Assembly (NCBI GenBank): GCA_003563255.1
Contig: PWSL01000285.1
Coordinates: 1-24,487, forward strand
DNA from: Desulfonatronospira sp.
GTDB lineage: Bacteria > Desulfobacterota > Desulfovibrionia > Desulfovibrionales > Desulfonatronovibrionaceae
Direction of reading: 5' to 3'
DNA: 24,487 nucleotides
Shown: one piece after another, positions 7,665 through 20,703 of the stretch
Layout of the letters: the number at the start of each line of letters is the position of its first letter
Numbering within the stretch: the first letter of the stretch is position 1
Made by a program: the position numbers and the translations under genes
The notes under the pieces: model-generated
The model's database searches: none
Told to the model about the DNA's origin: nothing
The model's input: only the letters and a program-made list of their open reading frames with translations

Positions 7665-7754
7665 ATACCGGCCCGGGTAAAAGAGTTTGATGCAGCGTTG
7701 ACAAATTACACACGTTCTCATAATGATCACTCAAGTTTATGGTTATCTGCTTGG

Positions 7755-7874
7755 TATCTGTTTAGCGCTATGCATTTAGCACGGGGACTGGCTCTTCTTG
7801 CACTTATTTTTAGCTGATGTGAAGATCATTACTGAAAAATAAGTGCGGGGAGAGCCAGTCCCCTGCTTTCCCTT
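7755..7874. repeat. Family A element, copy 1 (loop reversed)
   Basis: The left end is TATCTGTTTAGCGCT, then GGGGACTGGCTCTTC. The arm CACTTATTTTT pairs with AAAAATAAGTG, and the loop (7814-7833) reads CTGATGTGAAGATCATTACT. The right arm here is GAGCCAGTCCCC rather than the GTGCCTGTCCCC of other copies, followed by CTGCTTTCC. The outer right terminus (AGCGCTAAACA) is missing. With the family B element it fills the 7430-7930 gap upstream of the cysteine desulfurase. Confidence 0.85.
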
Positions 7875-7930
7875 TTGACTCTCAAGTGAATCAAATATTT
7901 TACTGCCAGGCTGCTGCCTGAAATAAGACC

Positions 7931-9067
7931 ATGAGACCTCTATATTTTGATTATAATGCCACCACGCCGGTGCATGAAGACGTGGTTCAGGCCATGCTGC
8001 CCTTTTTCACTCAGAAATTCGGCAATCCCGGGTGCGGGCATATGTACGGAATGCAGGCCCGAAAGGCAATGGAGATTGCCAGGGAAAAAGTTGCAGGGCT
8101 TATCAATGCCGACCCAGGGCAAATATTTTTCACCTCCTGTGCTACTGAATCCAACAACCAGGTTTTGTCGGGAGTGCTGCAACCTCATGAGGAGTTGATA
8201 GTTTCAGCAGTTGAACACCCTTCGATAATAAAACCGGCCCATGAACTTTCAAGGACAGGCGTAACAGTCCGGACAGTATCCGTGGACAGTGACGGGCTCG
8301 TAGATCCGGACCAGCTCCTTGAGAAGCTTTCGGACAAGACGAAGCTGGTCAGCATTATGCTGGCCAACAACGAAACAGGTACTATCCAGCCTGTGGCGGA
8401 TATTACATCCAGGACGCAACCAGTAGGTATCCTGGTGCATACCGATGCTGCCCAGGCTGTAGGCAAGATACCGGTTGATGTCAAAGATCTCAAGGTGGAC
8501 TTTCTCAGCATTGCCGGTCACAAAATGTACGCACCCAAAGGCATAGGAGCTTTGTATGTCCGGGATCCCGGCACCCTGAAACCTTTGCTCTACGGCGGGG
8601 GGCAGGAAAAAGGGCTTCGCTCCGGAACCGAAAACATCGCTTATATTGCAGGCCTGGGTCAGGCTGCTGAACTTGCAGGCAGGGACACTGAATCCGAAGT
8701 CCGACGTCAGAAGCTTCTGGGAAAAAAATTTATACAGGGCCTGTCCAGGATAGACAGGGACTTTGTGCTGCACGCACAAAACGCTCCCAGGCTTCCAGGA
8801 ACCATGTCCATAGGCTTTGCAGGCTGCAGGGCCGGTGACATCCTGTCCGGCATGATCGCCTGTAACTTGGCGGCCTCTGCAGGTGCTGCATGTCACGGCG
8901 ACAATCTCAGTATGAGCCCGGTTCTTGAGGCCATGAGTGCTGACCCGTATTTCGGTCTTGGCACCATCAGATTTTCCTGGGGCAGAATGACAGCAGAAAA
9001 GGACATTGAGGAACTCTGCAGCAGACTGGAGTTCGTATTCCATGACTTTCTGATCCGCCCGGGTTAG
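7931..9067 (+). CDS. NifS/IscS-type cysteine desulfurase, selenocysteine-lyase-like
   Basis: A PLP-dependent fold type I enzyme of 378 residues that would remove sulfur from cysteine, or selenium from selenocysteine, leaving alanine. Visible residues are His96 (AVEHPS), the PLP contacts Asp172 and Gln175 (HTDAAQA), the PLP lysine Lys198 (SIAGHKMYAPKG) and the persulfide cysteine Cys321 (SAGAACHGD). The motif around Cys321, the segment YGGGQEKGLRSGTEN and the N-terminus YFDYNATTPVHEDV resemble eukaryotic selenocysteine lyase (SVGAACHSD) more than E. coli IscS (SSGSACTSA). The match is from memory, so substrate remains open. No iscU, iscA, selA or selD is adjacent. It is divergent from ycjF, convergent with ycjX (30 bases apart), and lies between them. 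The ribosome binding site before the ATG is weak. Confidence 0.92.
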   Translation: MRPLYFDYNATTPVHEDVVQAMLPFFTQKFGNPGCGHMYGMQARKAMEIAREKVAGLINADPGQIFFTSCATESNNQVLSGVLQPHEELIVSAVEHPSIIKPAHELSRTGVTVRTVSVDSDGLVDPDQLLEKLSDKTKLVSIMLANNETGTIQPVADITSRTQPVGILVHTDAAQAVGKIPVDVKDLKVDFLSIAGHKMYAPKGIGALYVRDPGTLKPLLYGGGQEKGLRSGTENIAYIAGLGQAAELAGRDTESEVRRQKLLGKKFIQGLSRIDRDFVLHAQNAPRLPGTMSIGFAGCRAGDILSGMIACNLAASAGAACHGDNLSMSPVLEAMSADPYFGLGTIRFSWGRMTAEKDIEELCSRLEFVFHDFLIRPG

Positions 9068-9097
9068 CTTGAGTCCTTCTAAAAAAGGTTGTCTTCC

Positions 9098-10441
9098 TTA
9101 AGAGGAAATAAATTCAAACACCCGGTCCAGGCCCAGATGCCTGGGGGGGATGAGATAGTTTTCCGGTGCATCGGGGTAGACCCGGAAAAATGGATAATCA
9201 CCGGCTGACCAGTTTTCAGGCCATGTCACTGGGAGTTCTGGCACGCTGTACTCCTTGAATTCCCTGCCTGGATTGTCCCTGGCTATTTTGCCCTTGAGCC
9301 TGCGCACCCCACTCACCGGAAACGTGGAGTGACAGGCACTGCAGACAAACCATTCGCTTTTCACCTGGGGCAGCATCTTGCCGGCCCTCTCGGTCATCAT
9401 CCGTAAAAGACCAATGAGACGTCTGTTCTCTATGTCCATGGGGTGTACCAGGTCAGCCTTGGCCGCCACAAAGGCCACCCGGTTCAACCTCTTCTGCCAG
9501 AATTTTAAATACCTCAAAAGCAGGGTCCCCAGGTCTGAGCGGGGCCGCATTATCTCAAAAAGATCCAGGAGTATCTGACGATTATCATTGTAGCGCCCCA
9601 CCCCGCCGGCCAACAGCGATGGAATGTCCACCAGGACCACCAGGGAGCCGGCCTGGGAAATATTTTCAAATACCGGCAGGGCTACTTCCTTTCGGTATAT
9701 CCTGTATTCCACCGACATCTTCCTGGCCAGTTCCGGGTTGTCCCGGCGGGCTTTTTCAGGCAGAGGTGCAAACTGACGTCCGGCAGTCAGCCCGGCCGGC
9801 CTGCTGGAAGCAATTTCTTCCACGGTGCCTGGTGCAGCGGTCTGCCCCTGCTGGTCCAGCAGGAAGACTGAAGGGGTGATTAGGGGCTTGTAGGCCAGGA
9901 TGAGACGGGCCAGAGTCTCCCGGTACAGTGCCAGGAGCCTTTGGGTTTCAATTTTTTGCCCCCGGATATATTCCAGGTAAGGGCCGGCGGCCCTGGCATA
10001 GTCGTGGTGCCTGCTGAAATGGGACAGAACATGGTCCGACCACTGGGAGTAGCTGTTGAATGCTGCAATTGCAGCATCAGCTATGCGCTCCCCGGGAAAA
10101 TCAAAAAAGGACATCCTCTGGGTATGCAGCATCCAGTCCGACCGCCGGAACTGGCAGGTGTACTGGGAGCAATCCATGGTCTTCTGCGGCCACCTGCCCC
10201 TGGCCAGTTCCTCCCGAAAGGTGGAATGCGTAAAATAAGGAGGCCAATCGCCCCTGGAGGGAATCTCCCTGAAGTCTGTGATGTCCACACCTTTGCCCAC
10301 ATGAAAATGACCCTGGCCGAATTCCATGAGATGCGAAACGAGGGAAGTAATGAAAACAGTCTTGCCGCCCCCGGCTATTCCGGTGACCACCACGTTGTTG
10401 TGCTGCCTCAAATTGAGAGCGTTGCGCATGAAACTTTTCAT
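9098..10441 (-). CDS. YcjX-like P-loop NTPase (DUF463)
   Basis: A 447-residue protein with an N-terminal Walker A motif GIAGGGKT (residues 21-28) in the context VVVTG...VFITSLVSHL. This matches the conserved opening of YcjX (VTGLSRSGKTAFITS). Further family marks are FFDFPGERIAD, LVVLVDIPSLLAGG and the base-recognition-like FVAAKADLVHP. YcjX proteins are stress-linked cytoplasmic NTPases, encoded with YcjF in the Psp regulon of enterics; biochemical function is not settled. The start at 10441 (ATG) is the best of three options; a TTG at 10465 and an ATG at 10429 remain possible because the SD is poor. The gene ends 30 bases from the opposing desulfurase. Confidence 0.9.
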   Translation of the reverse strand: MKSFMRNALNLRQHNNVVVTGIAGGGKTVFITSLVSHLMEFGQGHFHVGKGVDITDFREIPSRGDWPPYFTHSTFREELARGRWPQKTMDCSQYTCQFRRSDWMLHTQRMSFFDFPGERIADAAIAAFNSYSQWSDHVLSHFSRHHDYARAAGPYLEYIRGQKIETQRLLALYRETLARLILAYKPLITPSVFLLDQQGQTAAPGTVEEIASSRPAGLTAGRQFAPLPEKARRDNPELARKMSVEYRIYRKEVALPVFENISQAGSLVVLVDIPSLLAGGVGRYNDNRQILLDLFEIMRPRSDLGTLLLRYLKFWQKRLNRVAFVAAKADLVHPMDIENRRLIGLLRMMTERAGKMLPQVKSEWFVCSACHSTFPVSGVRRLKGKIARDNPGREFKEYSVPELPVTWPENWSAGDYPFFRVYPDAPENYLIPPRHLGLDRVFEFISS

Positions 10442-10552
10442 TCTGGAATGACATCCTTGTTGCAAAATTTTGCGATGAATAAAAACCTGTTGGCAGAAGA
10501 AACCAAAACCAGTACCTTTTGGCAGATATATCCGGGGCAGGCAAGAAGTAAA

Positions 10553-10605
10553 GTAACCATTCAGTTGGTACTCTATGGTGGTTCCTTGATCCCGGCCTGA
10601 GGACC
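10553..10605. repeat. Family C left-end fragment
   Basis: It begins GTAACCATTCAGTTGG and continues with TGGTGGTTCC, weakly resembling the interior of other family C copies. It lies in the divergent gap (10442-10664) between ycjX and azlC. The rest of that gap shows no gene and should hold the two divergent promoters. Confidence 0.5.
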
Positions 10606-10664
10606 ATCCCGCACCTGGGTTGCGGGTGTAGTTCGCGTTAGTATTATTTCATGTCAGGGAAAAA

Positions 10665-11390
10665 ATGAAGACTTCCACAGAGGATAAAGACAGCACTCAG
10701 ATTGTTTTCACCCGCAAAGGAATGCTCCAGGGTTTTATTAAGTGCATCCCTCTGGGTCTGGGCGTGTTCGCTTATGGCCTGGTTTTCGGGGTTCTGGCGG
10801 TCCAGGCCGGCATGAGCCCCCTGCAGGCACAGATAATGAGCCTGACAGTATTTGCGGGCGCATCCCAGCTCATGGCCCTGGAACTATGGGCCACGCAACT
10901 ACCCGTCCTTGCACTTACCGTTACAGTATTTGCGGTTAACATGAGGCACCTGCTCATGGGTGCTGCCATGCGGGACTGGCTGGTTCGTCTTCCTCCCGGC
11001 AAAACGTATTTCAGTCTTTTCTTTATGACAGATGAGTCCTGGGCACTTTCAGTGAAAGAAATGGCTTCTGGCAATAAGGACGCGGGGTTTTTTCTGGGCT
11101 CGGGACTGTGCATCTACTTTTTCTGGAACAGTGCCACAGGTCTTGGAGCCACCATGTTTACCCTGGTGGACAGACTTTTTGCTGACCCGGCTGTTCTTGG
11201 CCTTGACTTTGCCTTTACAGCGGTATTTATAGCTCTACTTATATTTTTCTGGAAAGGAAAATCTCAGGTACCGGTATGGCTGATTGCAGGTATGGTGGCC
11301 TGGATTGTTTTTCTGCTTCTGCCCGGGAAGTGGTATATCATCCTTGGCGGACTGGCCGGAGGAATCGCTGGAGCCATAAAGGATGCTTGA
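10665..11390 (+). CDS. azlC: AzlC/YgaZ family branched-chain amino acid exporter, large subunit
   Basis: A 241-residue polytopic membrane protein with about six or seven hydrophobic helices. The family's conserved elements are the start of the permease domain GFIKCIPLGLGVFAYGLVFG, the FAGASQLMALEL helix and the AVNMRHLLMGAAM segment. Together with AzlD it forms an exporter for branched-chain amino acids, as YgaZH does for valine and methionine in E. coli. The ATG at 10665 follows a modest AGGG box. azlD overlaps its end by 8 bases, indicating translational coupling. No Lrp/AsnC regulator is adjacent, unlike the azl operon of Bacillus. Confidence 0.95.
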   Translation: MKTSTEDKDSTQIVFTRKGMLQGFIKCIPLGLGVFAYGLVFGVLAVQAGMSPLQAQIMSLTVFAGASQLMALELWATQLPVLALTVTVFAVNMRHLLMGAAMRDWLVRLPPGKTYFSLFFMTDESWALSVKEMASGNKDAGFFLGSGLCIYFFWNSATGLGATMFTLVDRLFADPAVLGLDFAFTAVFIALLIFFWKGKSQVPVWLIAGMVAWIVFLLLPGKWYIILGGLAGGIAGAIKDA

Positions 11391-11694
11391 AAGCAGCGGA
11401 TTCATCTTTGCCGCGGCCATAGTACTCATGACCGCGGCCACCTATATTACCCGGGCCGGGGGTCTTTTTATCATCAGCAGAATCGCTCCTACCCAGCGCC
11501 TGCAAGCTTTTTTGAATCATGTGCCGGCTTCAATCCTGGTGGCCATAATTGTTCCCAGCCTTGTGGACAAAGGCCCGGCTGAGTTTATTGCTGCAGGCTC
11601 AACCGCGGCAGCAGCTATTCTTACCCGCAACCTGATCATATCCCTGCTGACAGGTCTGATATGTGTTTCTCTTTTAAGGACCCTGATTTTTTAG
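11383..11694 (+). CDS. azlD: AzlD/YgaH family exporter small subunit
   Basis: A 103-residue membrane protein with about three to four helices. The family signature lies in AATYITRAGGLFIISRIAP near the start and FLNHVPASILVAIIVPSLV in the middle. It pairs with AzlC to form the branched-chain amino acid exporter. The ATG at 11383 lies inside the azlC end (8-base overlap). Its TAG stop shares its final G with the first base of a family C repeat (GTAAGCATTC), so an insertion may have supplied or trimmed the C-terminus. The length is nevertheless normal for the family. Confidence 0.93.
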   Translation: MLESSGFIFAAAIVLMTAATYITRAGGLFIISRIAPTQRLQAFLNHVPASILVAIIVPSLVDKGPAEFIAAGSTAAAAILTRNLIISLLTGLICVSLLRTLIF

Positions 11695-11750
11695 TAAGCA
11701 TTCATGGGGTGCCGTATCCGGCCCGGGGACAGTCCCCGCGAGACCTTTTT
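11694..11750. repeat. Family C left end with GGGGACAGTCCCC palindrome
   Basis: GTAAGCATTCATGGGGTG at the start is a family C terminus. GGGGACAGTCCCC (11725-11737) is a near-palindromic REP core. No right end is present. It is followed at once by a family A copy, giving back-to-back elements after azlD. Confidence 0.6.
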
Positions 11751-11753
11751 ATT

Positions 11754-11872
11754 GGATGTGGCATGGGGACTGGCTCTCCCCGGACTTATTTTTCAGTAAT
11801 GATCTTCACATCAGCTAAAAATAAGTGCGGGGGTGCCTGTCTCCTGCTTTCTTTATAAGCGCTAAACAGATA
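11754..11872. repeat. Family A element, copy 2 (loop forward)
   Basis: GGATGTGGCATGGGGACTGG leads into CCGGACTTATTTTT. The loop (11795-11814) reads AGTAATGATCTTCACATCAG, and the right arm is AAAAATAAGTGCGGGGGTGC, then CTGCTTTC and the outer end AGCGCTAAACAGATA. The left outer end is lost, apparently where the family C fragment abuts. Confidence 0.85.
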
Positions 11873-12013
11873 CACAAACGCTAAGTTGTGTGAACCTGCA
11901 CAGAATTAAACGCTCTGAATATATACGATTATTCCGGCTGAACATATATCCGGCATTGGCGATTGACAATTACTCGGCCCTGGGATAAACAGCACAGGAT
12001 TGTACTGGAGGGA

Positions 12014-12090
12014 GGGGACAGGCACCTCCGCACTGATTTTATGGCAGAAAGGCTGCAGAATATTTGAAAAAAGTGCGGGGAAAGTCAGGC
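12014..12090. repeat. Diverged palindromic REP element upstream of glnH
   Basis: GGGGACAGGCAC is followed by CTCCGCACTGATTTT. The reverse arm is AAAAAAGTGCGGGG (12066-12080), after a loop containing the small palindrome GCAGAAAGGCTGC. The architecture is that of family A, but the loop sequence is unrelated. It lies just upstream of the putative glnH promoter. The remaining part of the 11695-12163 gap, about 11873-12013, shows nothing I can name. Confidence 0.65.
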
Positions 12091-12107
12091 ATCATGCGAC
12101 ATAACCG

Positions 12108-12136
12108 TTGAACAGATGCTGTAATGGAAGTTTAGT
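12108..12136 (+). promoter_or_regulatory. Possible sigma-70 promoter for glnHPQ
   Basis: TTGAAC (12108-12113) and TTTAGT (12131-12136) are separated by 17 bases and lie about 28 bases before the glnH start codon. Each box matches the consensus at four of six positions, so this is a weak prediction. Confidence 0.35.
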
Positions 12137-12163
12137 TTTATTTTTTAATTTATGGAGGTATCG

Positions 12164-12925
12164 ATGAAAAAAAAAGGTTTTATTTCAAGTCTTATTTTAG
12201 GCGTCTTTTTGTTCATGAGCATGTTTGCAGGACAAGTACATGCTAAAAAACTTACTGTTGCTGTTGATACGGCATTTGTGCCTTTCGAGTTCAGGTGCCC
12301 CGATACAGGAGATTATATTGGATTCGATATTGATCTCTGGGATGCCATTGCAGAAAGAATCGGGGTAGAGTATGAGCTTCAGCCCATGGATTTTTCCGGC
12401 ATTGTTCCAGCTCTGCAGACGGGCAGCGTGGATGCCGCTCTGGCAGGGATCACCATTACTGCCGCACGCGAAAAAGTAGTTGACTTCTCCCACCCCTACT
12501 ACGACAGCGGTCTTAGTATCATGGTAATGAAAGACAATGACGAAATCCAGGGTCCTGAAGACATAGAAGGCAGGACCATTGCTGTTCGCACAGGCACCAC
12601 CAGCGCAGACCATGCCCCCAGGCTCAATCCTGCAGATATCGTCATGTTTCCCAACATTGAGGCTGCTTATATGGAGGTCCGCGCTGGACGTGTGGACGCA
12701 GCCATGCATGACACCCCGAATGTGATGTACTATATCCAGACAGCCGGTGACGGACAGGTAAAGGCCGTGGGCCCACGCATGCAGTCCCAGTCCTACGGCA
12801 TAGGCTTTCCCCTTGGAAGCGAACTGCGAAATGACGTAAATGTCGCCTTTCTGGAACTGGTGGACTCGGGTGAATACGCCGAGATATACAGGAAGTGGTT
12901 CGGCACAGACCCCAACCCCAGATAA
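12164..12925 (+). CDS. glnH: Polar amino acid ABC transporter, periplasmic binding protein
   Basis: A 253-residue family 3 solute-binding protein. Residues 1-27 form a signal peptide (MKKKGFISSL, hydrophobic core, then QVHA with cleavage likely after Ala27). The mature part begins KKLTVAVDTAFVPFEF and holds the ligand-pocket segments GFDIDLWDAIAERIG, GITITAAREKVVDFS and GTTSAD, and ends with the usual YRKWFG motif. It would bind glutamine or a similar polar amino acid in the periplasm and deliver it to the GlnP-type permease. The ATG at 12164 is set by TATGGAGG 9 bases upstream; an ATG 12 bases earlier lies before that RBS. It is the first gene of a three-gene operon, followed by a terminator-like hairpin and two repeat elements. 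Ligand specificity is inferred only at family level. Confidence 0.93.
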   Translation: MKKKGFISSLILGVFLFMSMFAGQVHAKKLTVAVDTAFVPFEFRCPDTGDYIGFDIDLWDAIAERIGVEYELQPMDFSGIVPALQTGSVDAALAGITITAAREKVVDFSHPYYDSGLSIMVMKDNDEIQGPEDIEGRTIAVRTGTTSADHAPRLNPADIVMFPNIEAAYMEVRAGRVDAAMHDTPNVMYYIQTAGDGQVKAVGPRMQSQSYGIGFPLGSELRNDVNVAFLELVDSGEYAEIYRKWFGTDPNPR

Positions 12926-12931
12926 TTTCCT

Positions 12932-12968
12932 GCCCCGCAGGTTAAACCTCCTGCGGGGCTTCTCTCCT
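12932..12968 (+). terminator. Terminator or attenuator hairpin after glnH
   Basis: GCCCCGCAGG (12932-12941) pairs perfectly with CCTGCGGGGC (12950-12959) around TTAAACCT, then TTCTCTCC. It lies 7 bases after the glnH stop. Such a hairpin commonly stabilises the binding-protein mRNA and lets only some transcription continue into the permease. The T-run is weak. Confidence 0.65.
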
Positions 12969-12980
12969 CACCGGTTTCGG

Positions 12981-12998
12981 CATCCCCTGAATGGTTAC
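12981..12998. repeat. Family C right-end fragment
   Basis: CATCCCCTGAATGGTTAC is the reverse complement of the family C terminus. No left end is found nearby, so it is a solo end between glnH and glnP. Confidence 0.6.
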
Positions 12999-13079
12999 AT
13001 ATGGATCAGCTCACTTTTTGTTTTTACTGACTACTGCGACTGGCAATATGACTTTTTGCACTCGCATCTTTTTAATACC

Positions 13080-13212
13080 GTATCTGTTTAGCGCTTTGGA
13101 TGTGGCATGGGGACTGGCTCTCCCCGCACTTATTTTTCAGTAATGATCTTCACATCAGCAAAATAAATGCGGGGGTGCCTGTCCCCTGCTTTCCTTTAAA
13201 AAAGGGCTAAAC
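13080..13212. repeat. Family A element, copy 3 (loop forward)
   Basis: The left end is GTATCTGTTTAGCGCTTTG, then GGGGACTGGCTCTCCCCGCA, the loop AGTAATGATCTTCACATCAG (13139-13158), the right arm GCGGGGGTGCCTGTCCCC, and the outer end GGGCTAAAC. Part of the right inner arm is shortened (AAAATAAATGC). Confidence 0.88.
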
Positions 13213-13306
13213 TTTTACATTTTTTCTGACTACTGACTACTGACTACTGGCCACTGACTACTGCGACTGGCAATATGACTTTTTGCACTCGCATCTTTTT
13301 AATACT

Positions 13307-13439
13307 GTATCTGTTTAGCGCTTTGTGATGTGGCATGGGGACTGGCTCTCCCCGCACTTATTTTTCAGTAATGATCTTCACATCAGCAAAAAAAAGTGCG
13401 GGAGTGCCTGTCCCCTGCTTTCCTTAAAAGCGCTAAACA
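13307..13439. repeat. Family A element, copy 4 (loop forward)
   Basis: It has the same layout as copy 3, with the loop at 13367-13386, the left end GTATCTGTTTAGCGCTTTG and the right outer end AAAAGCGCTAAACA. It ends only 21 bases before the glnP start codon, so the RBS of glnP lies immediately beside the repeat. Confidence 0.88.
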
Positions 13440-13460
13440 ATCTTACATTAAGGTTGACTT

Positions 13461-14117
13461 ATGGATTTTCAATACGATTTTGTTCTTTCCACCCTTCCTC
13501 AGTTGATGAAGGGAGTAAGGCTGACTATCCACATTACGGTTTACGGACTTCTGGGGGGAGTTGTGCTTGGAGTGGTCACCGGTCTTATAATGGCTTACAG
13601 GATACCTTTTCTCCGCTGGATTGGAGCCACCTATGTATGGATCATCAGGGGGACCCCGATAGTGGTGCAGGCCATGTTCGTCTACTTTGCTCTGCCGCTG
13701 GCCATGGGTATCCGCATGACCGGAGTATATGCCGCTATTCTTGTCCTGGCCATAAACGCCGGGGCCTATATTTCCGAGATAGTCAGAGGGGCAGTCCTGT
13801 CCATCAGCAAGGGGCTGGTGGATGCAGGACTGGCCCTGGGTCTTTCCAGGATTCAGGTTACAGGATATGTTGTGGGCCCCCTGGCTTTTCGAAGAATGAT
13901 TCCTCCCCTGGGCAATCAGTTCATCATCGGACTGAAAGACACTTCACTGTTTATTGTCATAGGAGTCGGCGAGTTGACCCGCCAGGGCCAGGAAATAATG
14001 GCTTCATCATTCAGGGCGTTGGAAGTATGGACTGCAGTTGCAATTATATATCTGCTTCTGACCACTGTGCTGGCGCTTTCCCTGCGCTGGCTGGAACGGA
14101 GAATGAAGATAATATGA
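13461..14117 (+). CDS. glnP: Polar amino acid ABC transporter permease
   Basis: A 218-residue HisM/GlnP-type inner-membrane permease with about five helices. The N-terminus ([20 protein letters not shown]) is the classic opening of the family. The cytoplasmic coupling (EAA) loop lies about residues 112-145, with [20 protein letters not shown] followed by LGLSRIQ. After it come [20 protein letters not shown] and a final helix. It would move the amino acid delivered by GlnH across the membrane, probably as a homodimer since only one permease gene is present. An AAGG box lies about 8 bases before the ATG. The stop overlaps the glnQ start (ATGA at 14114-14117), showing tight coupling. Confidence 0.94.
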
Positions 14118-14842
14118 AAATCGTTGAATGTAAAAAAGTATGCAAAAGCTTTGGAGAGGCCAAAGTCCTGCATGATATCGACCTGTCCATAGATGCCGGC
14201 GAAGTTGTGGTTGTCCTGGGTCCTTCGGGTTCCGGCAAATCAACCCTGTTGCGGTGCTTCAATGTCCTGGAAACCATCACCTCCGGAGATCTCCTGGTGG
14301 ACGGCAAAAGCGTTATAGATCCTGATACGGATATTCGACATATTCGACAGGAAGCCGGCATGGTTTTCCAGCAGTTCAACCTGTTTCCTCAAATGACCGC
14401 TTTGCAAAATGTGGCATTCGGTCCCAGGAAGGTCAGAGGAATCCCCAAAAAAGAAGCTAATGAACTGGCCATGGAGCTATTAAAAAAGGTGGGACTGGCT
14501 GAAAGGGCCACTTATCACCCTTTCCAGCTCTCAGGAGGGCAGCAGCAGCGCGTCGCCATTGCCAGGGCTCTGGCTGTTAAACCCAAGCTCATGCTGTTTG
14601 ACGAGCCTACCTCTGCTTTGGATCCGGAACTCAAAGGTGAAGTTCTCTCAGTGATGCGCTCCCTTGCATAAGAAGGCATGACCATGATAGTGGTATCCCA
14701 CGAGATTCGATTTGCCCTCAACGTAGGCAACCGGCTGATCTTTATGGATGATGGCCGCATTATTCACGATGGTGATCCCAGGGAACTATATGAAAACCCT
14801 CCCACAGAGAGGTTGCGGGACTTTCTGCACGCCATTCAGTAA
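14114..14842 (+). pseudogene. glnQ: GlnQ-type ABC ATPase interrupted by an in-frame TAA
   Basis: The frame encodes a full 242-residue amino acid transporter ATPase except for a TAA at 14669-14671 (codon 186). Before the stop are Walker [10 protein letters not shown] (36-44), the Q-loop FQQFNLFP, the signature [15 protein letters not shown] and Walker B plus D-loop [14 protein letters not shown]. After it, still in the same frame, come EGMTMIVVSHEIRFAL, which contains the switch histidine, and a normal C-terminus to 14842. Relatives usually have Glu or Lys where the stop is (as in LAEEGMTM), so one base change from GAA or AAA explains it. The truncated product would lack the H-loop and be inactive. 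ATGs at 14678 and 14684 could allow reinitiation of the last 55 or 53 residues. Alternatives are readthrough or a sequencing error. Confidence 0.9.
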
Positions 14843-14927
14843 TGACCTGATCACCGGCTGGTTAATAATGATTTCCGGGCAAGGCCGGCAGTTGCATGCA
14901 GTATGGGAGCGTTTCAGATAGCACCGC

Positions 14928-14969
14928 AAAAAATTTTCCTGGTCCGGGGCACAGAGCGACCGGACCAGG
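14928..14969 (-). terminator. Rho-independent terminator of the coiled-coil gene
   Basis: Read on the minus strand, CCTGGTCCGG and CCGGACCAGG form a perfect 10-bp stem (14960-14969 with 14938-14947) around a 12-base loop, followed by AAAATTTTTT. It lies 19 bases past the stop of the gene at 14988-15305. From the plus side it could also close the glnHPQ transcript, though without a T-run. Confidence 0.75.
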
Positions 14970-14987
14970 AAGATTCCACGACCAGGG

Positions 14988-15305
14988 TTATTTCTTGGGT
15001 CCTTCCCTGTAAGCCCGTTCAAACTCTTCTTTGGCTTTGGAAAAACTCTTTTTCCACGCCGACCAGGATTTTTCCATGCCCTGTTTCAGGTCCTCCCAGC
15101 CTGACTCATCCTTATCCCGGACGTTTGACAATTTGCTTTCCAGTTCTTTGAGCTTTTTACGCAACTCCAGCATCTGCTGCTGATATTCGTCCTTGAGTTC
15201 TCCCTCGGCCTGAGCGGCTTCCTCCGTCAACTTGTCCAGGTCCTTGTTTAATTCGTCCATCTTGACCTTGAGTCTGAGAATATATTCGTCCTTATTTTCG
15301 TCCAT
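14988..15305 (-). CDS. Coiled-coil protein, Sll1863-like stress family
   Basis: A 105-residue highly charged protein without signal or membrane segments. Residues about 8-68 form a long coiled coil (heptads in RLKVKMDELNKDLDKLTEEA and MLELRKKLKELESKLSNV). A conserved-looking tail follows, with WEDLKQGMEKSWSAWKKSF and KAKEEFERAY. This arrangement matches the small coiled-coil proteins annotated as Sll1863-type stress response proteins, whose function is unknown. A strong ribosome binding site (AAGGAGGAAG) lies about 5 bases before the ATG. It is a single-gene unit with its own terminator, convergent with the glnHPQ operon. The family assignment is from pattern memory. Confidence 0.8.
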   Translation of the reverse strand: MDENKDEYILRLKVKMDELNKDLDKLTEEAAQAEGELKDEYQQQMLELRKKLKELESKLSNVRDKDESGWEDLKQGMEKSWSAWKKSFSKAKEEFERAYREGPKK

Positions 15306-15385
15306 TCAACTTCCTCCTTATTCCTGAATAGGCATTTCATATCAGGTCACCTCTTTGCTTGGCAAGCATGATGCGCCTGAAAAAC

Positions 15386-15462
15386 CGACTTTTTGCTGGA
15401 AAATCAACCATGGCCGGCTCTGCTTTATTGATTGCAATCTATGATGCACCTGCAAAAAGTCG
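15386..15462. repeat. Inverted repeat with CGACTTTTTGC arms
   Basis: CGACTTTTTGC (15386-15396) pairs with GCAAAAAGTCG (15452-15462). The preceding ATGATGCGCCTG also resembles the ATGATGCACCTG beside the right arm. The GACTTTTTGC motif recurs at about 13050, 13277 and 15733, so it belongs to a further small dispersed repeat family. Confidence 0.6.
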
Positions 15463-15483
15463 AGAAAATGAATAATTCAGAAA

Positions 15484-15658
15484 TCAACAATCCGTAACTT
15501 CTCAATAATTCTGGGCGATCTTACACTAAGAAAATACCTGGATTCCGGCTTTCGCTGGAATGACGAATGAAAACAGGTCGTTGCATTGTGATGTCATACC
15601 GGCGGAAGCCGGTATCCAGGAATACTGCCCGGAGTTATTGAGAAGTTACTCAACAATC
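15484..15658. mobile_element. Family D element with 9-bp direct repeats
   Basis: The ends GTAACTTCTCAATAA (15494-15508) and TTATTGAGAAGTTAC (15635-15649) are a perfect 15-bp inverted repeat. The flanks TCAACAATC (15484-15492) and TCAACAATC (15650-15658) are an exact 9-bp direct repeat, as expected of a target-site duplication. The interior has CTGGATTCCGGC and TGGAATGACG facing GTCATACCGGCGG and GGTATCCAG. This is a motif pair found in many bacterial intergenic repeats. There is no reading frame, so the element is non-autonomous and was moved by a transposase encoded elsewhere. Confidence 0.85.
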
Positions 15659-15717
15659 TACATAAATATTTGATTTTACTGACATCTGACGTCTGATCTC
15701 TGACGTCTGTGACGTCT

Positions 15718-15747
15718 GTGACTGCAAAAATGACTTTTTGCAGTCAC
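15718..15747. repeat. Perfect 13-bp hairpin preceded by TGACGTC repeats
   Basis: GTGACTGCAAAAA (15718-15730) pairs perfectly with TTTTTGCAGTCAC (15735-15747) over a 4-base loop TGAC. Upstream, 15680-15720 is a degenerate tandem array of TGACGTCTG units. No T-run follows, so it is not an obvious terminator. It shares GACTTTTTGC with other repeats in the window. Confidence 0.7.
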
Positions 15748-15799
15748 ATCATCTATTATAATCTTATCAATTTTTAACCATGAATTCACGGGGTTCTGC

Positions 15800-15827
15800 T
15801 TGACAAAAAAAAGTATGCGCTTAAAAT
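15800..15827 (+). promoter_or_regulatory. Sigma-70 promoter upstream of the CocE/ATP-grasp unit
   Basis: TTGACA (15800-15805) is a perfect -35 box. TAAAAT (15822-15827) matches five of six -10 positions, with a 16-base spacer. Transcription would start near 15834 and read through a family A insertion (15891-16030) before the hydrolase start at 16070. The rest of the 15306-16069 gap holds the repeats listed separately and no gene. Confidence 0.6.
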
Positions 15828-15882
15828 GAGAAACGCATTTACTTAAGTAATAATGAAAATTTCATTGTATCCGAATATATTG

Positions 15883-16038
15883 AACTTTGCGTAACAGTTT
15901 AGCCATTTGCAGGTGGCACGGGGACTGGCTCTCCCCGCACTAATTTTTTGCTGATGTGAAGATCATTACTGAAAAATAAGTGCGGGGGTGCCTGTCCCCT
16001 GCTTTCCATAGAAAAGGGCTAAACCGTTAAAACTTTGC
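15883..16038. mobile_element. Family A element, copy 5, with 8-bp direct repeats (loop reversed)
   Basis: The element 15891-16030 (140 bp) has ends GTAACAGTTTAGCC and GGCTAAACCGTTAA, inverted repeats matching at 12 of 14. AACTTTGC flanks it on both sides (15883-15890 and 16031-16038), an exact 8-bp direct repeat. Inside are GGGGACTGGCTCTCCCCGCA, the loop CTGATGTGAAGATCATTACT (15951-15970), GTGCGGGGGTGCCTGTCCCC and CTGCTTTCC. This copy defines the full length of the family and shows that it inserts as a unit. Confidence 0.9.
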
Positions 16039-16069
16039 CAAGAAAACCGGCAATACTGGGTGTACCTGA

Positions 16070-18076
16070 TTGAATAAGACAAGTAAAATCCATGTAATTG
16101 AAAACCAGTGGATCCCCATGAGTGACGGCTGCAGGATAGCAGCCAAGATATGGCTGCCTGTATCAGCTGAAAAAAACCCCGTACCAGCCATCCTGGAGTA
16201 CATCCCCTACAGAAAAAGAGACATTAAGGCCAGGCGTGATTCCCAGATACACGGTTTTTTTGCTGAACACGGCTACGTCTGTATCCGGGCGGATCTGCGT
16301 GGAAGCGGTGACTCAGAAGGAGTGCTCAGGGATGAATACCTTAAACAGGAACTCGACGACGGGATGGAGATCCTGACCTGGATTGCTTCTCAGCCCTGGT
16401 GCAATGGCCGCATTGGCATGATGGGCATTTCCTGGGGCGGATTCAATGCTCTGCAGATCGCCGCCCTGCAGCCTCCCCAGCTCAAAGCCGTAATCTCGGT
16501 CTGCTCCTCGGACGACAGGTATGCCGACGACATCCACTACATGGGAGGCTGCCTGCTTACTGACCAGCTCTCCTGGGCCTCCACCATGTTCGCCTACAAT
16601 TCCTGTCCTCCTGACCCGCTAATAGCCGGAGAAAAATGGAAGGACATGTGGATGGAAAGGCTGGAGGGAAGCGGGCTGTGGCTGAAAAACTGGCTTGGCC
16701 ACCAGAAGAAGGACTCCTACTGGAAACACGCATCAATCTGCGAGGATTACAGCGCCATTCAGGTGCCTGTATTCGCTGTCAGCGGCTGGGCTGACGGCTA
16801 TTCCAACCCTGTTTTCAGGCTGCTTGAGAACCTTTCATCTCCGGTCAAGGGCCTTGTGGGACCCTGGGGACATAAGTACCCACACATGGTCGAACTGGGT
16901 CCGGAAATCGATTTTCCCGGGGAATGCCTCAGGTGGTGGGACAAATGGCTGAAAGGCGTTGAAACCAGCATCATGGACGAACCACCGTTGCGGGTCTGGA
17001 TGCAGGATACGGTTTCTCCCCTGGTTTCCGAAAGGCCCGGGAGGTGGGTGGCGGAAGATAAATGGCCCTCACCCGACATCAAAAGCCTGGAACTGTGCAT
17101 CACCTCTTACGGACTGGAAACCCAGCCCAACAGGAATAACCGCGACCGCTGCATGGAGATACAAAGCCCCTTGAGTGTTGGGCTTTTCGGTGGCAAATGG
17201 TGTTCATACTCTGAATCCACCGATCTGCCCTGGGACCAGCGCGAGGAAGACGGCGGAGCCCTGGTCTTCGAGACACCCCCCCTGCAGAAAAGAACCGAGA
17301 TCCTGGGAAGACCCATGGCCCTGCTGGAGCTGTCTTCCAACAAACCCCAGGCCATGGTGGCGGTCAGGCTTTCGGACATCGGCAAGGACGGCCGAGGCAC
17401 AAGGGTTACCTTCGGCCTGCTGAACCTGACTCACAGGAACAGCCATGAATCCCCGGAAGAACTGGAGCCGGATCAAAAATACCTGGTCAGGGTTCCCATG
17501 AACTTTATCGCCCAGAGCTTTCCCGCCGGACACAGGATCAGGCTCTCGATATCCACCTCTTACTGGCCAGTGGCCTGGCCTTCTCCAGAACCGGTAAAAA
17601 TCTCACTTTATCCGGACAGCTCCAGACTTGTCCTGCCTGTAAGAAATCCCTCAACACTGGATCAAACCCTTGCCCCTTTTGATCCTCCGCCTGCCCTGGA
17701 GGGCATAAAGACAACCCTTCTGGTACCGGCAAAAAGGGAATGGACCGTGACGCACAACTTGGCCGACAATACAGTCAAGGTAAACGTAGTCAACAACGAC
17801 CCCAAAATACTACTGGAACCCATCAACCTCGCCATACAGAAGGATGTCCACGAAACTTTCTCCTACTCCAGCAACAACTACGATACAGTGCGGGGAGAGG
17901 TGGTTTCCAGGAGAAGCTTTCAAAGAGACGGCCTGGAACTGTCAACCATAACCAGGACGGTACTGACCTCCACCAGAACACATTTTAAAATCACAGCCAC
18001 CCTGGACGCTTTTGAAGGAGACGCCAGGATTTTCAGCAAAAGCTGGGATGAAGACATACCCAGGGAACTGGTTTAG
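16070..18076 (+). CDS. CocE/NonD family alpha/beta hydrolase (X-Pro peptidase S15-like)
   Basis: A 668-residue serine hydrolase. The alpha/beta core has the nucleophile Ser121 in GISWGG, the acid Asp242 in SGWADGY and His268 in GPWGHKYP. Tyr44 in LEYIPYRK occupies the oxyanion-hole position known from cocaine esterase. A jelly-roll C-terminal domain follows (about 325-560), with IRLSISTSYWPVAWP as its typical closing segment, and about 110 extra residues beyond. Family members cleave acyl esters, amides or X-Pro dipeptides. There is no signal peptide. The start is uncertain: TTG at 16070 is the first codon after an in-frame stop and keeps the family-like IENQWIPMSDG, whereas the ATG at 16118 would cut into it. 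It is probably co-transcribed with the ATP-grasp gene 85 bases downstream. Confidence 0.9.
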   Translation: MNKTSKIHVIENQWIPMSDGCRIAAKIWLPVSAEKNPVPAILEYIPYRKRDIKARRDSQIHGFFAEHGYVCIRADLRGSGDSEGVLRDEYLKQELDDGMEILTWIASQPWCNGRIGMMGISWGGFNALQIAALQPPQLKAVISVCSSDDRYADDIHYMGGCLLTDQLSWASTMFAYNSCPPDPLIAGEKWKDMWMERLEGSGLWLKNWLGHQKKDSYWKHASICEDYSAIQVPVFAVSGWADGYSNPVFRLLENLSSPVKGLVGPWGHKYPHMVELGPEIDFPGECLRWWDKWLKGVETSIMDEPPLRVWMQDTVSPLVSERPGRWVAEDKWPSPDIKSLELCITSYGLETQPNRNNRDRCMEIQSPLSVGLFGGKWCSYSESTDLPWDQREEDGGALVFETPPLQKRTEILGRPMALLELSSNKPQAMVAVRLSDIGKDGRGTRVTFGLLNLTHRNSHESPEELEPDQKYLVRVPMNFIAQSFPAGHRIRLSISTSYWPVAWPSPEPVKISLYPDSSRLVLPVRNPSTLDQTLAPFDPPPALEGIKTTLLVPAKREWTVTHNLADNTVKVNVVNNDPKILLEPINLAIQKDVHETFSYSSNNYDTVRGEVVSRRSFQRDGLELSTITRTVLTSTRTHFKITATLDAFEGDARIFSKSWDEDIPRELV

Positions 18077-18161
18077 GTTTTCCTCTTTCATGGCATTTTA
18101 CCTGCCTTTTCCAGAATAACACCTTCAACCCCTCAAGCTAAGCTTATCCGGAGACATTTTC

Positions 18162-19466
18162 ATGCCTAAAAAGAATATTTTTATTGTCGGTTTGGACGAA
18201 TTCAACAAACAACTTCTGCAGCAGCTCCCCCAGGCATCTGAGTGTGAATTTCACGCTGCCCTGGATATCTCTGACATAAGAAATGTCCAGTCCTATGATA
18301 TGCAGCACCTTATAGACAAAGCTGTGTCCAGGATGGAGGCTTTTGAAGGTTCGGTGGACGGAGTAGCTACCTATTATGATTTTCCCGGCACAGAACTTGT
18401 GCCCATACTTGCCAGGCGCTTCAACCTGCCCGGCCCCACCCTGGAAAGCGTTATCAAATGTGAACACAAGTACTGGAGCAGGCTGGAACAGAAAGAAATC
18501 ATTCCGGAACACATCCCGAGTTTTCAGGCCTTTAATCCCTTTGATTCCAGGGCGTATGAAAAAATCCAGGTCCTGCCGCCTTTCTGGATCAAGCCCATAA
18601 AGTCCTTCAAGTCTTTTCTGTCCTTCCGGGTCAGCGATGAAAGCCAGTTTGAGGAAGCCGTGGACAAAATCAAAAAAGACATCGGCTTCATGGGAGAACC
18701 GTTTAAATACCTTATGCAGAACTACGCCGAGATACCCTACGAAATGGCCTACATGCAGGAAAACTGCCTGGCTGAATCACCCATTGGGGGTCTGCAGTGT
18801 ACACTGGAAGGCTACTGCTGCAATGGACAAGTGGTGGGCTACGGGATCGTGGATTCCATTCAGGAAATAATGAGTTCTTCATTTGCCAGGTACCAGTACC
18901 CCTCTATTCTGCCCCTGGAGATCCAACACAGGATCATGGACATAGCCAGAAAGGTCATCACCCATATAGGTCTGGACAATTCAGCCTTCAACATGGAGTT
19001 TTTTTATCACCAGACCTCAGGACAGGTCTATCTCCTGGAGATAAACCCCAGAATATCCCAGGCGCACACTGACCTTTTCGCCAAAGTCCACGGCTATTCT
19101 CATCTTTCCATCATGCTGGACCTCTGTCTGGGCAGAAAGCCCCGGGTTATGGAAAGAAAGGGGGCCTTCACCGCTGCCGGCAATTTTATGGTCAGAACCT
19201 TTGAACAGGGGGTGGTGGTCCAGGCTCCTGGACCGGAACAGATTAAAAAAGTGCAGGAAATGTTTCCAGACACAAAGGTTAAAATTATGGTTAAACAGGG
19301 CGACAGACTCTCGGAGCTTCTGGCCCTGCAGGACAGCTACAGTTACGAACTGGCCAATATCATCATCGGAGGCAAGGACGAATCGGACCTGCTGGAAAAA
19401 TATAACAATGTACTTGATATTTTGAGCTTCAAGATCGATAAGGAGGAATATATAGCAGAAATATAG
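18162..19466 (+). CDS. ATP-grasp carboxylate-amine ligase-like protein
   Basis: A 434-residue protein with an N-terminal pre-ATP-grasp Rossmann-like part (KNIFIVGLDEFNKQLL) and an ATP-grasp fold. Visible marks are the nucleotide-binding lysine Lys144 in FWIKPIKSF, the acidic metal ligand Glu279 in NMEFFYH, and Glu293, Asn295 and Arg297 in LLEINPRISQAH, as in biotin carboxylase and D-Ala-D-Ala ligase relatives. It would activate a carboxylate as acyl phosphate and join it to an amine or thiol; the substrate is unknown. CGGAGA lies 8 bases before the ATG. It directly follows a hydrolase of the opposite chemistry (bond cleavage), suggesting a shared small-molecule or peptide substrate. No biotin carrier or other pathway gene is nearby. 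Confidence 0.85.
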   Translation: MPKKNIFIVGLDEFNKQLLQQLPQASECEFHAALDISDIRNVQSYDMQHLIDKAVSRMEAFEGSVDGVATYYDFPGTELVPILARRFNLPGPTLESVIKCEHKYWSRLEQKEIIPEHIPSFQAFNPFDSRAYEKIQVLPPFWIKPIKSFKSFLSFRVSDESQFEEAVDKIKKDIGFMGEPFKYLMQNYAEIPYEMAYMQENCLAESPIGGLQCTLEGYCCNGQVVGYGIVDSIQEIMSSSFARYQYPSILPLEIQHRIMDIARKVITHIGLDNSAFNMEFFYHQTSGQVYLLEINPRISQAHTDLFAKVHGYSHLSIMLDLCLGRKPRVMERKGAFTAAGNFMVRTFEQGVVVQAPGPEQIKKVQEMFPDTKVKIMVKQGDRLSELLALQDSYSYELANIIIGGKDESDLLEKYNNVLDILSFKIDKEEYIAEI

Positions 19467-19483
19467 CACCACAGGACGGCACA

Positions 19484-19638
19484 TCCCATCAGGGGGTCCT
19501 CGGTGGTGACTCATGGCATTAGGCCAGGGGACTGTCCCGCACTTATTTTTCTAACTCTCGCATCTGTAAATTGTTCATCAGAAAAAAATAAGTGCGGGAC
19601 TGTCCTCCTGGCCGGTATCTGCCCCCCTGAATGGTTAC
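19484..19638. repeat. Family C element, complete long copy
   Basis: It starts TCCCATCAGGGGGTCC (a diverged left end) and ends CCCCCCTGAATGGTTAC. Inside, GGGGACTGTCCCGCACTTAT pairs with ATAAGTGCGGGACTGTCC, with CTCGCATCTGTAAATTG in the loop. The left half matches 5825-5915. The CCGCACTTATTTTT arm is shared with family A, showing that the families exchange parts. It fills the gap between the ATP-grasp gene and the antitoxin-like gene. Confidence 0.8.
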
Positions 19639-19682
19639 AACGAAACGAAGCTGCTGTTTCTCATTCCATGGTAATGTAAGGT

Positions 19683-19910
19683 TTATTGATGGGCGGTATA
19701 TTCATCGAGAAGTCTGCGAATCATTTTTTGATATTGGGTATTATATTTTTTTGCTTCCTTCTTAAAAAAATCCACACTCGTTTTGCTCAGAGTAATTGTG
19801 ACCTTAATGGTTTCATCTTTTAAAGCAAGCTCTTCCGGCGATGGAAGAAAGTCAGAGACGACCTTGACCTTCCCCATTGGTTCGTCCGTGTACTTGATTT
19901 TCTCTTTCAT
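19683..19910 (-). CDS. Ribbon-helix-helix (CopG/BrnA-like) antitoxin, apparently orphan
   Basis: A 75-residue protein beginning MKEKIKYTDEPMGKVKVVSD, then DFLPSPEELALKDETIKVTI, and SVDFFKKEAKKYNTQYQKMI as the helix-turn part, ending RRLLDEYTAHQ. This is the common CopG-type antitoxin layout, in which a beta strand (IKVTITLSK) makes the DNA contact and two helices follow. Such genes usually pair with a BrnT/RelE-like toxin gene directly upstream. Here the upstream side (19911-20156) holds only the divergent crcB leader, and downstream lies a repeat, so no toxin partner is visible. The ATG at 19910 follows an AAGGA box; a TTG at 19931 would add seven residues. Confidence 0.82.
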   Translation of the reverse strand: MKEKIKYTDEPMGKVKVVSDFLPSPEELALKDETIKVTITLSKTSVDFFKKEAKKYNTQYQKMIRRLLDEYTAHQ

Positions 19911-19994
19911 AAATTTTTTTTCCTTCGCCAATATCCGGCGCCGATTATTCTGATTATGTTCTTTCTATATATTGTAATCGTTACCATTAAAGAA

Positions 19995-20024
19995 TTGACT
20001 CTGGGCACTTCTTGAGGATATGTA
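19995..20024 (+). promoter_or_regulatory. Possible promoter of the fluoride riboswitch transcript
   Basis: TTGACT (19995-20000) matches five of six -35 positions. TATGTA (20019-20024), after 18 bases, is a poor -10 box. A start near 20031 would place the RNA 5' end just before the aptamer, which is why I report it despite the weak -10. Confidence 0.35.
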
Positions 20025-20034
20025 GTTCCATGAA

Positions 20035-20104
20035 GGGGATGGAGTTCCCCCTGGTAACCGCCGTGATGCTGATGACTCCTGTTATTTCTGAAAATGTGGC
20101 GGTT
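20035..20104 (+). ncRNA. Fluoride riboswitch (crcB motif) aptamer region
   Basis: The conserved pieces occur in order: GGGGATGGAGTTCCCC (20035-20050), a short linker, AACCGCC (20056-20062), and GCTGATGACTCCT (20068-20080). These match the crcB motif consensus of GGNGAUGG...UUCNCC...AC and GCUGAUGACUCCU, which binds fluoride with three magnesium ions. GGCGGTT at 20098-20104 can pair with AACCGCC and may be part of the switch. The aptamer lies directly before an intrinsic terminator and the fluoride channel gene, the classic arrangement. Confidence 0.92.
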
Positions 20105-20117
20105 TTGTATATTATCA

Positions 20118-20142
20118 GCCACGCCTTGAGCGTGGCTTTTTT
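20118..20142 (+). terminator. Riboswitch-controlled intrinsic terminator
   Basis: GCCACGC (20118-20124) pairs with GCGTGGC (20130-20136) around CTTGA, followed by six T residues (20137-20142). It lies between the fluoride aptamer and crcB with only 14 bases left before the start codon. Fluoride binding would be expected to prevent this hairpin and allow expression. Confidence 0.9.
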
Positions 20143-20156
20143 GTGGAAATAATGTC

Positions 20157-20531
20157 ATGAACAAGATATTGTTGCTGGCGGTGGCCGGGGCCTGTGGAAC
20201 GCTTCTTAGATACTGGCTGTCAGTAGCCATGCACACCATTCTTGGACCCGGCTTTCCCTGGGGTACCTGGGCGGTGAACATCCTGGGATGTTTTCTGTTC
20301 GGCCTTTTCTGGATAATGATTCTGGAACGAGGAATTTTACCGGCTCATTTGCGCATCGTTGTTCTAGTGGGGTTTATGGGGGCATTCACCACCTTTTCCA
20401 CCTACATCTTTGAGTGCTCGGCCCTGATTCAGGACACTCAGTGGTTCAAACTGGGCCTGAACATTCTGGGACAGAACATCCTGGGCTTTTTTGCTCTTTA
20501 TCTGGGGATTGTGCTGGGAAGATTTATCTGA
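20157..20531 (+). CDS. crcB: Fluoride ion channel CrcB/Fluc
   Basis: A 124-residue inner-membrane protein with four helices that forms dual-topology dimers expelling fluoride. It has the family residues GACGTLLRYWLS near the N-terminus, PWGTWAVNILGCFLFG (the asparagine of helix 2) and GFMGAFTTFSTYIFE (helix 3 with the phenylalanine-box and central threonine/serine residues). The ATG at 20157 has only a weak GGAA-type ribosome binding site, consistent with control at the transcriptional step by the riboswitch just upstream. A single gene is present, so a homodimer is expected. Its stop codon lies one base before a family A repeat element. Confidence 0.97.
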   Translation: MNKILLLAVAGACGTLLRYWLSVAMHTILGPGFPWGTWAVNILGCFLFGLFWIMILERGILPAHLRIVVLVGFMGAFTTFSTYIFECSALIQDTQWFKLGLNILGQNILGFFALYLGIVLGRFI

Positions 20532-20532
20532 G

Positions 20533-20689
20533 GTATCTGTTTAGCGCTTTGCATGTGGCACGGCTTCCTGCCCGGAGGCATACAGCCCGGAGGAGGACTG
20601 GCTCTCCCCGCACTTATTTTTAGCTGATGTGAAGATCATTACTGAAAAATAAGTGCGGGGTGCCTGTCCCCTGCTTTCCTTCTAAAAAA
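20533..20689. repeat. Family A element, copy 6 (loop reversed, with internal insertion)
   Basis: The left end GTATCTGTTTAGCGCTTTGC begins one base after the crcB stop. A 30-base extra segment, CTTCCTGCCCGGAGGCATAC plus CAGCCCGGAG, interrupts the left arm before GGACTGGCTCTCCCC. The loop CTGATGTGAAGATCATTACT lies at 20624-20643, then GTGCGGGGTGCCTGTCCCC and CTGCTTTCC. The outer right end is replaced by a family B end. Confidence 0.85.
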
Positions 20690-20703
20690 GTGTCGCTGTA
20701 GTG
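20690..20703. repeat. Family B right end abutting the kinase stop codon
   Basis: GTGTCGCTGTAGTG is identical to the right end at 7651-7664. The next three bases (20704-20706) are the TAA stop of the minus-strand kinase, so the repeat ends exactly at the coding boundary. Confidence 0.75.

Follow-up and report, generated by a model that had tools for sequence, protein, structure and literature searches.

The window analysed here, a stretch of 24,487 nt that makes up one entire contig (C114; PWSL01000285.1) of a Desulfonatronospira genome (G000, 3.52 Mb in 532 contigs; below, the own genome), carries six copies of a short nested-palindromic element in which the outer arms keep a single asymmetric order and the central loop is found in either direction. 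The 23-bp loop, AGTAATGATCTTCACATCAG, reads forward at 11754, 13080 and 13307 and is reverse-complemented at 7755, 15891 and 20533, exactly as the initial annotation had reported, and the inversion is confined to the loop between symmetrical stems. A reversed loop is called the P state and a forward loop the Q state, and element loci and contigs bear L- and C-numbers, respectively. The copies, their loops and two related elements are located as follows.

7754..7876, plus strand: copy 1, A arm on the left, loop reversed, 12-mer GGGGACTGGCTC on both sides
7814..7833, minus strand: loop of copy 1, reversed (P state)
11752..11873, plus strand: copy 2, loop forward, left terminal repeat missing
11795..11814, plus strand: loop of copy 2, forward (Q state)
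13080..13218, plus strand: copy 3, loop forward, sharing a tandem duplication with copy 4
13139..13158, plus strand: loop of copy 3, forward
13307..13439, plus strand: copy 4, loop forward
13367..13386, plus strand: loop of copy 4, forward
15891..16030, plus strand: copy 5, variant terminal repeats GTAACAGTTTAGCC / GGGCTAAACCGTTAA, loop reversed, 8-bp target duplication AACTTTGC
15951..15970, minus strand: loop of copy 5, reversed
20533..20690, plus strand: copy 6, loop reversed, A arm enlarged by an insert of ~30 nt, right end of another outer family
20624..20643, minus strand: loop of copy 6, reversed
12000..12105, strand not assigned: related element, inner stem similar, loop different
19489..19638, strand not assigned: related nested palindrome from another outer family, sharing the inner stem CCCGCACTTATTTTT but closed by another loop

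Composition of the six copies

The common outer order described for all six copies holds, with corrections for copies 1, 2 and 6. Read at the coordinates of the initial annotation, the right-side CTGCTTTC and the left-side GGACTGGC are present in 6/6 copies, and the exact GGGGACTGGC in five, copy 6 having GAGGACTGGC instead. Copy 1 has the A-type 12-mer on both sides, with arms of 29 nt that are 90% complementary, and copy 2 is without the left terminal repeat. Copy 6 is chimeric: its right end, AAAGTGTCGCTGTAGTG, is that of another outer family, and its left (A) arm contains an insert of about 30 nt. Copies 3 and 4 lie within a tandem segmental duplication (73 nt at 99%, spacing 227), which bears out their earlier treatment as one event.

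The A-arm insert of copy 6 (CTTCCTGCCCGGAGGCATACAGCCCGGAGG, window ~20563-20592) also occurs at L026, L033, L107, L110, L137, L138, L169 and L229, and recurs with four loop types in at least three genomes.

Chance or palindrome ambiguity was rejected as a source of the two directions, as the outer arms are asymmetric and the loop is specific: its 20-mer matches the own genome exactly at 18 places and at 45 when up to three mismatches are allowed, against 0 for the reversed control. Across a collection of genome contigs, the 20-mer had one match, in a Clostridia metagenome-assembled genome, without the arms of the element.

Element anatomy and mobility

A complete element measures ~138 bp, lengths being mostly 136-152 bp. 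It is bounded by an outer terminal repeat with the sequence GTATCTGTTYAGCGC or, in copy 5, the variant GTAACAGTTTAGCC. The two sides differ in their arms, A (GCATGTGGCAYGGGGACTGGCTC) and B (GTGCCTGTCCCCTGCTTTCC); nested inside these arms, a symmetrical inner stem of 13-16 bp in the consensus (CCCCGCACTTATTTTT / AAAAATAAGTGCGGGG) closes the 23-bp loop. As single-strand DNA the element folds into a hairpin, with z between -6.3 and -9.3 in 4/4 tested elements. The A-arm 28-mer (up to three mismatches) occurs at 274 places in the own genome and at 51 in G006, a relative of the same genus assembled in 5 contigs; the other relatives compared are G001, G002 and G010.

Target duplications of 8 bp (up to one mismatch) flank 64/94 elements with both ends, summed over classes, against a mean of 0.5/179 in a shuffled flank-pair control drawn from an earlier element listing with most entries on both strands, a listing used only for this control and for the lengths. 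Copy 5 is flanked by the 8-bp AACTTTGC, and its site is empty in G006 and G002. Because of the terminal inverted repeats, the 8-bp target duplications and the empty site of copy 5, the elements are identified as non-autonomous miniature inverted-repeat transposable elements (MITEs), which are short, non-coding and present in many copies. The repeats and the 8-bp duplications further suggest mobilization by a DDE-type transposase. The genome has four Y1_Tnp matches, of which only the locus L214 carries 12-mer core motifs; no consistent link of these genes to the elements was found, the motifs at L214 being expectable given hundreds of copies.

Tandem arrays of the element at L019 (C54) and L015 (C329) have units of ~103-104 bp and a uniform loop direction. 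In addition, at least 24 copies in G006 are 151 bp long, share one score and have the stem CCGGGACCCACTTG; we read them as a recently expanded version of the same MITE, and all clear copies examined are forward.

Loop direction across loci and genomes

Among own-genome copies with standard A/B outer arms, 26 have loop 1, the loop of the window copies, reversed and 11 have it forward, with copies identical over the loop and 30 nt per side counted once. The claim that exactly half are flipped, true of the window, is thus an accident of it. In the relatives, standard-arm copies of loop 1 are forward in 2/2 cases in G006 and 1/1 in G010; nine more own-genome loop-1 copies have other or chimeric outer arms.

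Loop 2 (…GTCAATCATCCTTCAG), which shares the stem of loop 1, occurs at 18 places in G006 and 86 in G000, of which 73 were fetched, 10 at contig ends and those on C102, C119 and C204 being left out. Between A/B outer arms (outer family I) it is forward in 46 copies and reversed in 4 (forward/reversed: G000 35/1, G006 9/3, G010 2/0), L087 being one further reversed copy, the G000 orthologue of a counted G006 copy; in outer family III (C/D ends, CACTACAGCGAAAC…) it is forward in 16 and reversed in 2 (L160 and L167), by the arm classes of the script. Loop 3, on another stem, is clearly forward in 20 copies, unclear in three and short in four, and L071 (G002), among the unclear ones, has reversed outer arms. 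Loop 4 in G010 is forward in 7/7. Reversal is therefore not special to loop 1, three loop types being affected. The labels 'T2P' and 'T3P', under which a loose matcher also placed some chimeras and loop-3 copies, were not used for loop counts.

An assembly artefact, conceivable with an own genome in 532 contigs, was rejected: reversed loop-2 copies (L073, L116 and L117) are found in the 5-contig G006, and L087 (G000) and L103 (G006) share a reversed loop across two assemblies.

Opposite loops at one orthologous insertion

Six orthologous pairs are present among the fetched loci (L083/L101, L087/L103, L165/L199, L187/L200, L190/L198 and L182/L061), all of loop 2 and all with identical loop direction, L187/L200 sharing one flank only. 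A seventh pair, L117 (G006, reversed) and L235/L240 (G000), emerged from a search with the L117 locus; here the loops are opposite and the arm order is the same. At this locus G006 reads A-[CTAAAGGATGACTGACACATTT]-B and G000 reads A-[AAAACCTGTCAATCTTCCTTTAG], with the loop adjoining the A arm; the left flank and A half are 93% identical between the two genomes, and the B half and right flank 87%. The G000 insertion lies partly on contig C431 and partly on C481, two contigs with an end overlap of 39 identical bases; its loop is read within the single contig C431 together with the left unique flank and the A arm, and further inserted sequence follows the loop.

The site is empty in G001 and G002, and G000 and G006 therefore share one insertion, in which the loop later changed direction, either by turning in place or by replacement with a turned one. 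Since this pair is opposite and the six others agree, loops turn after insertion, but rarely. The initial claim of a loop inverted inside unchanged inverted arms is thus supported, including at one orthologous site.

For L116, also reversed in G006, only partial flanks and no pair were recovered among the candidates scored; several locus and element searches scored 40 candidates per genome where more existed. The orthologous sites of window copies lack the element for copies 3/4 in G006, G001 and G010 and for copies 5 and 6 in G006 and G002, and so provide target-site information and no loop-1 pair; another nested palindrome lies near the site of copies 3/4 in G006.

In the intergenic region matching copy 2, L201 (G006:C4) is a worn A-half without loop. 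Furthermore, the L087/L103 and L083/L101 stretches are 98.8-99.2% identical and window genes of the same two genomes mostly ~80% alike, a contrast that suggests recent transfer of these stretches.

Probable template switching within the hairpin

The account that we consider probable is template switching in a hairpin during replication, with loop inversion as a by-product rather than a new switch. The MITEs would spread by a presumed transposase leaving 8-bp target duplications, and their nested imperfect inverted arms would form a hairpin that replication has to cross. The growing strand may then change template, continuing on the opposite arm or strand, so that the loop is copied from the wrong strand before synthesis returns to the original template. 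The loop and part of the symmetrical stem would thereby be inverted and the asymmetric outer arms left unchanged; reversed loops may subsequently also spread by transposition. Hence, of the two mechanisms proposed in the initial annotation, a hairpin-based replication error fits, and a dedicated recombinase is without support.

The inverted arms adjoining the spacer are 13-16 bp long, within the range of ~10 bp or more taken as the criterion for hairpin-loop inversion. Mixed outer and inner arm types occur in four copies (L002, which is window copy 1, L013b, L180 and L189, the last also a chimera), which are as arm homogenisation would leave them; evidence for homogenisation is thin.

Several observations weigh against this account. 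Reversal frequency varies greatly by loop (0/7 for loop 4 in G010), which template switching alone does not explain. Covariation in the stem, another trace that template switching should leave, is weak: matched double variants number 5, where 1.8 are expected (p 0.03), and a single change, seen twice in G010, accounts for two of them. Inner modules and outer arms occur in shuffled combinations across families, which means that copies also exchange parts. Finally, the two loops at the L117 locus differ at 4/20 positions, above the expectation from the flanks (chance 0.05-0.24), and the G000 loop there is identical to loops at other loci; replacement by the loop of another copy is possible for both of these reasons.

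Alternative explanations

The main rival to template switching, a possible reading to which we attach a good deal less probability, is module exchange, in which a copy would acquire the inner stem-loop of another through conversion or recombination at the stem they share; since that stem is symmetrical, the incoming loop may land in either direction. At least four inner stems and several loops are found between the same outer arms, the same core lies within four outer end types, and chimeras combine a C left with an A right end (L148, L150, L181 and L184), A with E (L011), E with C (L041) and B with F (L045). Moreover, four loop types are found with the arm insert CTTCCTGCCCGGAGG..., among them loop 1 in either direction, and the exact matches of the G000 loop at the L117 locus accord with exchange. 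However, the process requires two exchanges inside stems of 13-16 bp, and none of the extracted loops lies within 3/20 mismatches of the reversed G006 loop at L117. Target duplications with up to one mismatch are kept by 6/11 reversed and 6/10 forward loop-1 copies with both ends, which opposes crossovers there, not conversion.

A broader version of this idea, offered tentatively, is that the nested-palindrome elements of the genus may form a combinatorial shuffling system in which outer ends, middle blocks, inner stems, loops and loop direction would all be exchanged between copies, with the stems as exchange hotspots and flipping as a signature of this traffic.

L026 is also chimeric, two outer ends of different terminal-repeat families being joined through a common core.

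Coupling of flipping to transposition, whereby the transposase or the host would nick and re-resolve the hairpin and reset direction at some insertions, is unlikely. The elements are indeed mobile MITEs with 8-bp duplications, and these are intact on reversed and forward copies alike; nevertheless, the L117 site and arm order are common to two genomes with opposite loops, which places the change after insertion, and direction is tied to loop type (reversed:forward 22:13 for loop 1 and 4:45 for loop 2, duplicates removed), which a reset at each jump does not predict.

It is more improbable still that there are two stable sub-families, one per direction, each descended from its own master copy after one old flip. 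The loop-1 copies in two relatives are all forward (3/3), and a reversed master may have amplified in the own genome. The arms were therefore compared on their own in 35 of 39 loop-1 copies (22 reversed, 13 forward), L015b, L019b, L019c and L003b being removed as tandem or segmental duplicates; L038 and L185, which lack the stem, were omitted from the arm test and the tree, yet are included in the counts of 26 and 35 given above. Nearest neighbours share loop direction in 40% of cases, against 52% expected, the between-minus-within arm distance is slightly negative for loop direction, and no arm site is diagnostic of it (best Fisher p 0.014 in 150 tests). The arm tree has 13 direction changes against 10.7 with shuffled labels and 4/32 well-supported inner branches; with so few branches resolved and with arms and loops moving between copies, the 13 changes are no estimate of flips. 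Direction thus does not track arm sequence, and fixed arm-linked sub-families are unsupported. The genome-wide tabulation of arms and loops that the initial annotation had called for accordingly gave mixed directions and no arm-defined sub-families, the outcome that it had named as refuting its claim being sought and not found. Given the weak tree and the recombining arms, these results speak against fixed sub-families, not against few flips; the opposite states at L117 show later change, and the idea may still fit part of the loop-1 copies.

Most invertons are switched by invertases, and a 23-bp spacer is very short for the synapsis of two recombinase sites. A dedicated site-specific recombinase acting as an inverton-like switch is hardly credible here: nothing beyond the inverted repeats themselves favours it, direction is constant in 6/7 orthologous pairs, the loop measures only 23 bp, and no recombinase family was detected among the 18 main window open reading frames (Pfam, E up to 1e-5), the rest of the genome not being searched. 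The resemblance to invertons is that a segment between inverted repeats reverses (PMC11892184), the very short loop and the lack of a recombinase among the frames scanned being the differences.

Relation to known systems

Both the inversion of inverted-repeat spacers and the homogenisation of their arms are described in yeast (Saccharomyces) as products of template switching, spacer inversions arising only with arms >9 bp (PMC8604942). Yeast and MITE cases are alike in that a spacer turns recurrently between short inverted arms, and perhaps in arm homogenisation as the companion product, and unlike in that the yeast spacers are of a few bp and lie in genes, whereas a 23-bp loop turns here in dispersed bacterial mobile elements. 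In the chloroplast trnH-psbA hairpin, a 25-27-bp loop between arms of at least 18 bp occurs in its two forms in 19 and 16 of 35 sequences, homoplasiously (PMC2903610). The geometry of these minute inversions is nearly the same, flips recur and both forms are common; however, they concern a single organelle locus across species or individuals, in contrast to many dispersed copies in one bacterial chromosome.

Among bacterial elements, a MITE review mentions inversion of Correia elements, which are likewise short and non-coding with terminal inverted repeats (PMC10969869); its passage concerns inversion of the Correia element, whereas here the loop alone turns inside fixed arms. Repetitive extragenic palindromic (REP) sequences and REPINs, associated with REP-associated tyrosine transposases (RAYTs), are also high-copy palindromes with varied stems and loops (PMC3116915, PMC3733652), and four Y1_Tnp matches are present here; the present elements differ in having terminal inverted repeats and 8-bp duplications.

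No description of loop flipping inside bacterial MITEs was found in one open-access library, covered mostly as titles and the beginnings of abstracts, as were the papers on MITEAba12 and mosaic TIMEs. The initial statement that such flipping was undescribed therefore stands for bacterial MITEs within this coverage, and falls for the geometry as such, which is described in chloroplast hairpins and yeast. The phenomenon is most likely a known kind of inversion in a new setting, a many-copy bacterial mobile-element family.

Other features of the window

An Rfam scan of the window returned a fluoride riboswitch only, an aptamer (RF01734, 49 bits) at 20026-20088 upstream of crcB at 20157-20531. At ~14100-14850, downstream of solute-binding and permease genes, the ATPase of an amino-acid ATP-binding cassette (ABC) transporter has an in-frame stop inside its coding stretch, reflecting either a broken gene or a sequencing error.

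Implications

The present study records inverted loops in a family of bacterial mobile elements that reaches many copies per genome. Sub-families of MITEs and REP-like elements cannot safely be told apart by the direction of the loop, and a flip between family copies may be scored by aligners as a cluster of substitutions. Furthermore, such a family would allow sequence data by themselves to show how often flips occur and how their rate varies with the lengths of stem and loop. Should the elements of this genus indeed form a shuffling system, such MITEs would be natural recorders of hairpin template switching in a bacterial chromosome.

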